Source: Phycisphaerae bacterium
Lineage (GTDB): Bacteria; Planctomycetota; Phycisphaerae; Sedimentisphaerales; Anaerobacaceae
Assembly (NCBI GenBank): GCA_012744475.1
Contig: JAAYBV010000050.1
Span: 1-64,000, forward strand
DNA: 64,000 bases
Direction: 5' to 3'
Part shown: one piece after another, positions 57,744 through 59,563 of the stretch
How the letters are laid out: each line of letters begins with the position of its first letter
Position numbering within the stretch: position 1 is the first letter of the stretch
The notes under the pieces: model-generated
The model's database searches: none
What the model was told of the DNA's origin: nothing
The model's input: the letters and a program-made list of their open reading frames with translations, nothing else
Made by a program: the position numbers and the translations under genes

Positions 57744-57760
57744 CGACGATGGGAGAACCA

Positions 57761-59563
57761 GTGATTGACATGGCACCGAAGCGATGGGCGCCGACGGTGA
57801 GTCTGTCCTGGCTGACGGGGCCGATCTTCGACAAGGAGCTGCGCGTCTCCAGCCGGCGTCGCCGCAATTATGTGCTGCGCTTCGTCTATGTGGTGTTCTT
57901 CCTGGTATTTGCCAGTCTCATCTGGATGGAGGAAATGCCGAGCGGCGCCGGTTCGGTGTACCAGGTCTCGCGCATGGGCCGGGCGGCCCAGCAGATCGTG
58001 GTGTCCGTCGTCTGGTTCCAGTTCATCGCTTCTCAAGCCGTTGCCATCGTCATGCTGAGCACCGCGATCAGCGATGAGATCTACAACAAGACGCTCGGCC
58101 TGCTGATGACCACGCCGATCAGCGGCTTTCAAATCGTCATCGGCAAGCTGCTCAGCAAGCTGCTTCAACTGGCGCTGCTCCTGGCAATCACGCTGCCGCT
58201 GCTGGCGATCACGCGGGTTCTCGGCGGTGTCCCGTGGGGATATCTGGTCGGCGGGCTGTGCGTCACCCTCAGCACGGCGCTGTTTTGTGGGGCGCTGAGC
58301 CTGTTCTTTTCGATCTTCACGCGCAAGGCGTACGCCGCGATCATCACGACCGCGATAATGGCCGCCGTGTGGTTTGGCCTGGTGCCTGGAATCAGCATAC
58401 CGGCCCTTCACAACGTCATCTCGGAACGAGCGATCACCGACGCATTGTGTCGCGTGAATCCGTATTGCATGCTGGTTGCCGACACCATCCGCCTGATGAC
58501 AGGTCAGTCGATCAGTTCCGTCCATTGGACAGCCCACTGCGGCGTATCGCTGGCCGGCTCGGCGCTGCTGCTGTTCTGGGCGACCGTCTTCGTCCGCAAG
58601 GCGGCGCTGCGCCAGGCGGTGGGGTGGCAGCCTCAAGTCCGTGGGACTTGGGGATGGCATAGATCGGGACGGGATGCAGAGAGACACCCTCCCCTCCCGA
58701 TGTCTATCGGGACGCTTGAGGCCGCCACACGAAGGTCTTTGGTCCGGCGTGTGACGGGCTCGCCGGTGTTCTGGAAAGAGCGTCGTTCGCCGCTGCTGGG
58801 TCGGCTCGGTCTCGGCAAGATTGTTATCGGGATCGTCTTGATCGCATTGGCGGTTCTGGCCTACGTTTCGTGCGCCAGGCAGAACATGCTCAACGACAGC
58901 GAGACACAGGTTGCCTATGTGGTCGTCTTTTTCGCATTGGGGACGCTGTTCGCGGCGGTCCTGCCGGCGACGTGCATCACGAGCGAGAAGGAATCGCGGT
59001 CGTGGCCCATTCTTCTGACGACGCCGATCTCGGACCGGGCCATCCTCTGGGGCAAGTTCCTCGGCGCTGTGCGTCAGTGCTCGATCGCGTGGCTGCCGCT
59101 GTTCGCGCACGTGGGCCTGTTCACGGTGTTGGGGACGATCCGTCCGATTGGCGTCGTGCAATTGGCTGTTGTGGCGGCTTGGTTGACCGTGTTTCTCTGT
59201 GCGACCGGGTTGTATTTCACAAGCCGCCTTGCGCGAACGACGACTGCCGTGATCGCCAATGTCAGTCTGGCAGCCGGCCTTTGGGCGCTGCTCCCTCTGT
59301 TCCTGGCCATTGTCGACGAGGTGTTCCGGATTCACGGTGGCTTTCCGTCGGTGTATGAGGACATGAACCCCTTCGTTCAGGCGATCGTCATTACCGACGC
59401 AACGGCGCGCCGACAGCTCCATGACTACAATTGGATGCAGGATGGAATGCGTCGGGCCGGCGAAGCGACCAAATGGATCCTGCTCAACGGTGCGCTCTAT
59501 GTCGTCATCGGACTGGGCTTCCTCGCGCGCGCCCGGGCGCGCCTCCGGCGAAATCCTGTCTGA
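57761..59563 (+). CDS. ABC-2 permease, fused double half (paralog 3)
   Basis: 600 residues. The first half has GPIFDKELRVSSRRRR and STAISDEIYNKTLGLLMTTPIS. The second half has GSPVFWKERRSPLLGRLG and ATCITSEKESRSWPILLTTPIS. It is closest to paralog 2. GTG 57761 is my start because GGGAG lies five bases upstream; ATG 57749 and ATG 57770 are in frame as well. The linker between halves is longer than in paralog 2 because a 105-bp palindromic element is inserted in frame (58624-58728). Last gene of the run; the next gene has its own promoter. Confidence 0.8.
   Translation: MIDMAPKRWAPTVSLSWLTGPIFDKELRVSSRRRRNYVLRFVYVVFFLVFASLIWMEEMPSGAGSVYQVSRMGRAAQQIVVSVVWFQFIASQAVAIVMLSTAISDEIYNKTLGLLMTTPISGFQIVIGKLLSKLLQLALLLAITLPLLAITRVLGGVPWGYLVGGLCVTLSTALFCGALSLFFSIFTRKAYAAIITTAIMAAVWFGLVPGISIPALHNVISERAITDALCRVNPYCMLVADTIRLMTGQSISSVHWTAHCGVSLAGSALLLFWATVFVRKAALRQAVGWQPQVRGTWGWHRSGRDAERHPPLPMSIGTLEAATRRSLVRRVTGSPVFWKERRSPLLGRLGLGKIVIGIVLIALAVLAYVSCARQNMLNDSETQVAYVVVFFALGTLFAAVLPATCITSEKESRSWPILLTTPISDRAILWGKFLGAVRQCSIAWLPLFAHVGLFTVLGTIRPIGVVQLAVVAAWLTVFLCATGLYFTSRLARTTTAVIANVSLAAGLWALLPLFLAIVDEVFRIHGGFPSVYEDMNPFVQAIVITDATARRQLHDYNWMQDGMRRAGEATKWILLNGALYVVIGLGFLARARARLRRNPV
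58624..58728. repeat. 105-bp inverted-repeat element inserted in frame in permease paralog 3
   Basis: GTGGCAGCCTCAAG (58624-58637) and CTTGAGGCCGCCAC (58715-58728) are inverted ends matching at 13 of 14 positions. Inside are CAAGTCC-GTG-GGACTTG (58634-58650) and an ATAGA/TCGGGA dyad (around 58660-58712). The length is 105 bases, that is 35 codons, and the gene reads through it as a Trp/Gly/Arg-rich linker. Paralog 2 has no such stretch. Confidence 0.75.

Follow-up and report, generated by a model that had tools for sequence, protein, structure and literature searches.

A probable REP doublet read in frame within the linker of a planctomycete ABC-2 type permease, and its relatives in other genes of the lineage

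The window, a stretch of 64,000 nucleotides from a Phycisphaerae bacterium, carries three ABC-2 type permease genes on the plus strand: P1 (54136..55893), P2 (55905..57743) and P3 (57749..59563), all assigned on the basis of their open reading frames and matches to Pfam ABC2_membrane families, with hydropathy as further evidence for P3, a protein of 604 residues. Within P3 lies a 105-bp unit (58624-58728) bounded by inverted arms of 14 nt each (58624-58637 and 58715-58728), which are complementary at 13 of 14 positions (93%) and enclose 77 nt. An earlier note on this DNA had described these inverted ends and a unit whose length is a multiple of three and which the gene reads through; the arms and the reading frame bear this out, as the unit amounts to 35 codons and the open reading frame at 57749-59563 continues across it. 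The residues it touches, 292-327 (GWQPQVRGTWGWHRSGRDAERHPPLPMSIGTLEAAT), sit between two hydrophobic segments of P3, one ending near residue 288 and the next starting near residue 347. The same note had the linker absent from the sister permease. This is right for the sequence, as neither P1 nor P2 carries the element by linker comparison or by our covariance model R1, which found no REP in either, but not for the linker itself: both sister permeases have one at that place, unrelated in sequence to that of P3 and 14-16 aa shorter (43 and 41 aa from RK to the conserved P, against 57 aa in P3).

Our preferred reading of the unit at 58624-58728 is a pair of facing REPs, a doublet of the REPIN/BIME type, and not one terminal-repeat element. 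The left REP (58624..58659, plus strand) is intact, with a GTGG head and a stem formed by CCTCAAGTCC and GGACTTGGGG, and it scores 58.3 bits with R1, a model for which this very copy was among the 34 sequences used. The probable right REP (58685..58728, minus strand) is degraded and has a different palindrome as its tip, TCCCGATAGACATCGGGA at 58695-58712 on the minus strand. With filters off it reaches 16.2 bits, barely above the 15.5 bits of the left REP when read on its reverse strand with the same model, and its E value of 0.44 in 123 kb is by itself non-significant; we accept it on three grounds, namely the match of its outer end at 13 of 14 positions, its location at the place of the second REP in the family and a copy on contig C27 that aligns over both arms. 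Since members of the family usually have a YGK triplet just before GTGG, as the base composition at 141 distinct REP heads indicates, the unit is probably nearer 58621-58731, and we take 58621..58731, with the base triplets ahead of GTGG at both ends and no strand assigned, as the probable full REP doublet.

A blastn search of the own genome with a 151-bp query from this region gave 40 matches, itself included, one of which spans both arms (C27:44092-44187, 74% identity to the query). No further REP copy was found by R1 in the window, and an Rfam scan of 58400-58900 with E values up to 1 returned no match. The inverted ends expected of a MITE of a DDE transposon are present at the unit, and the closest homologues, at 56-59% identity, are too distant for a target site duplication to be read from them. 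The consensus REP is free of stops in five of its six frames, the 105 bp of the P3 copy in three.

The repeats to which the left REP belongs, here type A, share the layout GTGGCAGCCTCAA-[palindromic tip]-TTGGGGATGG. The exact pattern GGCAGCCTCAAN{2,22}TTGGGGATGG has 153 matches in the own genome and none for the reversed control, so that the further genome copies that the earlier note had proposed to look for are there in number. A looser pattern allowing up to two mismatches has 102 matches versus 33 in its control, and the loose matches therefore include chance ones. R1 places at least 147 hits at at least 111 sites, counts that are lower bounds, as scoring covered 150 of 5863 candidates. 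The model derives from an alignment, A1, of 34 REPs chosen from 55 listed, and the invariance of the arms in it is partly by construction, since the search expression fixed most arm bases and left the tips free. The stem retains a fixed T.G wobble, and the tips are very variable and change as whole palindromes: across the 34 REPs, pairing holds in 97.5% of cells, with two-sided changes in 34 cells compared with 7.4 in shuffled alignments. When two-sided changes are counted by pair instead, there is no excess over shuffles (3 versus 2.5), and in 8 of the 34 REPs one tip pair does not form.

Nearly all model hits start with GTGG (143 of 147; three have an altered head and one begins at model position 4), and the 36 close pairs all have the inverted arrangement, GTGG facing outward, with a span of 110-116 bp in 27 of them, compared with 105 bp for the P3 copy. 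In their character as dispersed, high-copy imperfect palindromes of 20-50 nt, and in their conserved 5' tetranucleotide, a variant of GTAG, these repeats agree with what defines a REP; inverted pairs at a preferred spacing, the mark of a REPIN or BIME, are a feature of the family. The exact pattern is present in 21 of the 61 genomes searched, the own one included, and a scan of genome contigs found it in at least 80 records, with 79 planctomycete names and one Verrucomicrobia among the matches listed. Separately, four of six contig ends inspected in the own assembly (those of C10, C22, C24 and C26; loci L132, L141, L147 and L151) break within a near-identical subfamily of REP doublets, which suggests recent copies beyond the resolution of the assembler.

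To place the P3 insert among its relatives, we read 13 homologous permease loci from 12 genomes of the same genus, family and order, comprising 12 open reading frames compared together and one (L068) that a filter had dropped and that was read separately; further, paralogous or weak matches, including loci L073-L088, are outside this set. R1 detects no REP at any of the 13, and the insert is absent from all 13 linkers. Both observations that the earlier note would have taken as refuting its reading, the lack of another genome copy and the same linker conserved in distant orthologs, thus came out the other way. For the seven of the 12 open reading frames caught by the RK-to-P expression, the linker measures 39-46 aa, against 57 aa in P3. 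Without the insert, P3 would keep a native linker of 22 aa, 17-24 aa less than these seven, and its 35 codons occupy the place of about 17-24 in them. We therefore reject a clean insertion: native linker must also have been lost, during the insertion or afterwards, and linkers as variable as these fit either order. No close relative offers an empty-site allele from which the joint and the age of the insertion could be read, the nearest homologues being 56-59% identical and three genomes of the same genus (G001, G004 and G005) giving no match. An AlphaFold2 model of the permease, built on three alignment rows, was too poor to use (mean pLDDT 48.7, with residues 293-361 below 50).

The family was probably spread by one of the REP-associated tyrosine transposases (RAYTs), enzymes that, in the part of PMC8266576 considered here, cleave REPs in a manner dependent on the tetranucleotide. 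One protein of the own genome, encoded on contig C22 (L040:1490-2246), passes the cut-off of NCBIfam NF047646 for this family, and two relatives are weaker. The C22 gene is flanked by GTGG-headed hairpins of a sister type, type B (GTGGCAGCGGCAAG...CTTGCCGATGG), with two preceding the gene and an inverted one following, and the weaker C77 gene (L091:1398-2048) lies between GTAG-headed hairpins (GTAGGGGCGAGGCATGCCTCGCCC), so that the genome has no fewer than two kinds of REP head. None of the three RAYT-like genes of the own genome adjoins a type A REP; C32, the third, has no REP beside it. Among 31 RAYT-like loci compared, four encode proteins 49-61% identical to the C22 RAYT, the others 26-39%, and in a tree of RAYT-like proteins 120-400 aa long these four and C22 form a five-protein clade with a support of 0.998. 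Hairpins headed by GTGGCA lie close to the RAYT gene at all five loci of this clade, and in G023, from another genus, the RAYT gene stands between a type A REP and a close variant of it with a CCTCAT...ATGGGG stem. A RAYT of the C22 clade is thus, to judge by these neighbourhoods, the best candidate for the spreader of type A REPs. The C22 protein itself resembles known RAYT/TnpA-REP proteins in passing the family cut-off and in its GTGG-headed flanks, and its activity on type A REPs is putative, as is a REPtron that would pair type A REPs with a cognate RAYT; GTGG-headed REPs with their RAYTs are tabulated for Pseudomonas putida in the portion of PMC2817692 (Nunvar 2010) consulted.

The permease is not the only gene that appears to have taken up such repeats. 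REPs are by definition mostly extragenic. By a crude screen with a codon model trained on the window, which is blind to copies that broke a gene, 9 of the 111 sites combine an open frame with a coding signal, weak at two of them (L145, 1.9; L171, 2.8). The strict version of the screen, which overlooked the P3 gene, retained 5 sites of the 111; the relaxed version retained 40, eight of them positive on both sides, to which L112 from the strict screen was added to give nine. Matches to Pfam identify the hosts as a squalene-hopene cyclase relative (L126), a FAD oxidoreductase (L144), a zf-HC2/DUF4139 protein (L163), endonuclease V (L168), an M56 peptidase (L186) and a ParA-like ATPase (L145); the hosts at L171 and L112 have no Pfam match. 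The same pieces of peptide (WQPQ...LGDG, ...LEAAT) recur in frame in unrelated proteins, and the hosts found have no evident function in common. In the FAD oxidoreductase the insert is absent from all seven homologues that cover the site, an eighth (L342) falling short of it. In endonuclease V (L168:1231-2016, contig C47), residues 74-104 face four residues that lie between the aligned segments of the solved chain 2w35_A; about 27 extra residues surround the REP relative to this chain.

The DUF4139/zf-HC2 insert (L163, contig C44) is common to four species, namely the own one, G004 (L345), G005 (L346) and G001 (L350), and absent from six other homologues aligned. Its left arm is identical to the own copy at 30 of 30 positions in G004 and at 28 of 30 in both G005 and G001; the upstream flank is identical at 49, 29 and 56 of 60 positions in G004, G005 and G001, and the downstream flank at 50, 56 and 53 of 90, respectively. 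In G004 and G005 the arm is therefore better conserved than either flank, in G001 better than the downstream flank alone. G005 keeps both REPs, with two stem-breaking changes in the left arm. Constraint, gene conversion or chance could each be the source of this conservation.

Taken together, we consider it very probable (about 87%) that the permease insert is a non-autonomous, GTGG-headed REP doublet that was copied in by transposition and has since been carried as tolerated filler. The origin of the P3 linker in a mobile element, the part of the earlier note's proposal that spoke of a miniature mobile element in frame, is well supported by the many copies elsewhere, the doublet structure, the presence of a RAYT in the genome and the 13 homologues without the insert. 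A doublet of 105-111 bp would have been copied into the permease gene through single-stranded DNA, presumably handled by a RAYT, for which an enzyme of the C22 type may have served; it would have landed, in a stop-free frame, in the loop that joins the transmembrane halves and whose side of the membrane is predicted, replacing part of the old linker or accompanied by its loss, and would then have been carried along, apparently neutral, with its right half decaying. Against this account stand the weak right REP, the position of the own RAYT beside type B REPs with a pairing of type A and RAYT seen in another genus only, the lack of a close empty-site allele and an insertion that is not a clean addition.

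For the earlier note the element had been domesticated as a linker, which would mean that the REP-encoded peptide is useful to the permease, through spacing, partner binding or membrane contact, and is kept by selection. The open frame and a left arm that still fits the family consensus at 58.3 bits would agree with this, as would the DUF4139 insert of the same family, shared by four species with its left arm so well kept. However, we found no relative that shares the permease insert, whose right arm has degraded and which sits in a linker that is hypervariable among homologues; moreover, the DUF4139 arm shows no excess over the upstream flank in G001 (28/30 versus 56/60) and has its stem broken in G005, and the REP hosts are without evident common function. 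Neutral retention fits P3 equally well, so the claim of domestication is not supported for this gene; we regard selection for the peptide as improbable, and tolerated filler in a variable loop, the simpler account, as most likely. A wider form of the idea, drawing on the recurring peptide pieces and the DUF4139 insert, is that proteins of the lineage have repeatedly gained new loops from REP doublets, by exaptation over tolerance and with the permease linker as another case; this appears to us similarly improbable.

A role at the level of DNA or RNA, in which the in-gene hairpins would be a pause, processing or protein-binding site tuning expression and the peptide a by-product, seems unlikely to about the same degree. 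Such roles have been proposed for REPs in the part of PMC3733652 considered, and the region folds somewhat better than shuffled sequence (RNA z -1.70, with 8 of 200 as good; DNA z -2.05, with 6 of 200), but this excess is weak and the position is in the middle of a gene. We hold it to be very improbable that two permease halves were misjoined at a repeat during assembly. The assembly does consist of 118 contigs, and four of the six inspected ends stop in the near-identical doublet subfamily, but the spacer of the P3 doublet differs from that of this subfamily, a single frame runs through the two halves, homologues contain both in the same order and positive codon scores flank the insert on either side. 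A chance palindrome or ordinary divergence of linkers that do vary in these permeases, with no mobile element involved, is refuted by the 40 blastn matches, the R1 hits, the 153 dispersed exact matches against none reversed and the doublet architecture of the family.

In-frame REPs and palindromic elements of this kind have already been described, and copies within genes are a known but uncommon outcome. The Rickettsia palindromic elements (RPEs), the classical example, are not known to share sequence with the present REP family. As described in the part of PMC10969869 considered, RPEs stand in frame in unrelated genes, nearly half of them being genic; they are, like our repeats, palindromic and of similar size, in another host, a likeness by description. 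REPINs, as set out in the part of PMC3116915 (Bertels and Rainey 2011) consulted, are inverted REP doublets linked to RAYTs, in which the distance to the next neighbour has peaks at 71 and 110 bp. The present family shares with them the inverted doublet with its spacer, the dispersal and the high copy number, but belongs to another sequence family and organism, and the P3 copy is intragenic whereas those counted there are extragenic. Also comparable are the GTAG/CGTC REPs of PMC3733652 (Di Nocera 2013): the sections considered report intragenic copies in frame, dimers too, many of them in DNA repair genes, list Planctomycetes among the REP-bearing phyla and give a GTGG head for most O. terrae GTAG-20 elements. 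In-frame REPs and dimers and the GTGG head are thus common to both; the target genes differ, as do the fixed T.G wobble and the very variable tips found here, the comparison with the 24 families of that study being by description.

A literature search found no paper joining the terms REPIN, intragenic, protein and insertion. Our analysis adds a REP family with in-gene copies in a planctomycete, probably of the Sedimentisphaerales type, to the cases from Rickettsia, Proteobacteria and a Verrucomicrobium. With the DUF4139 insert present in four species beside lineages without it, one can now ask whether peptides that come from mobile DNA drift or get used.
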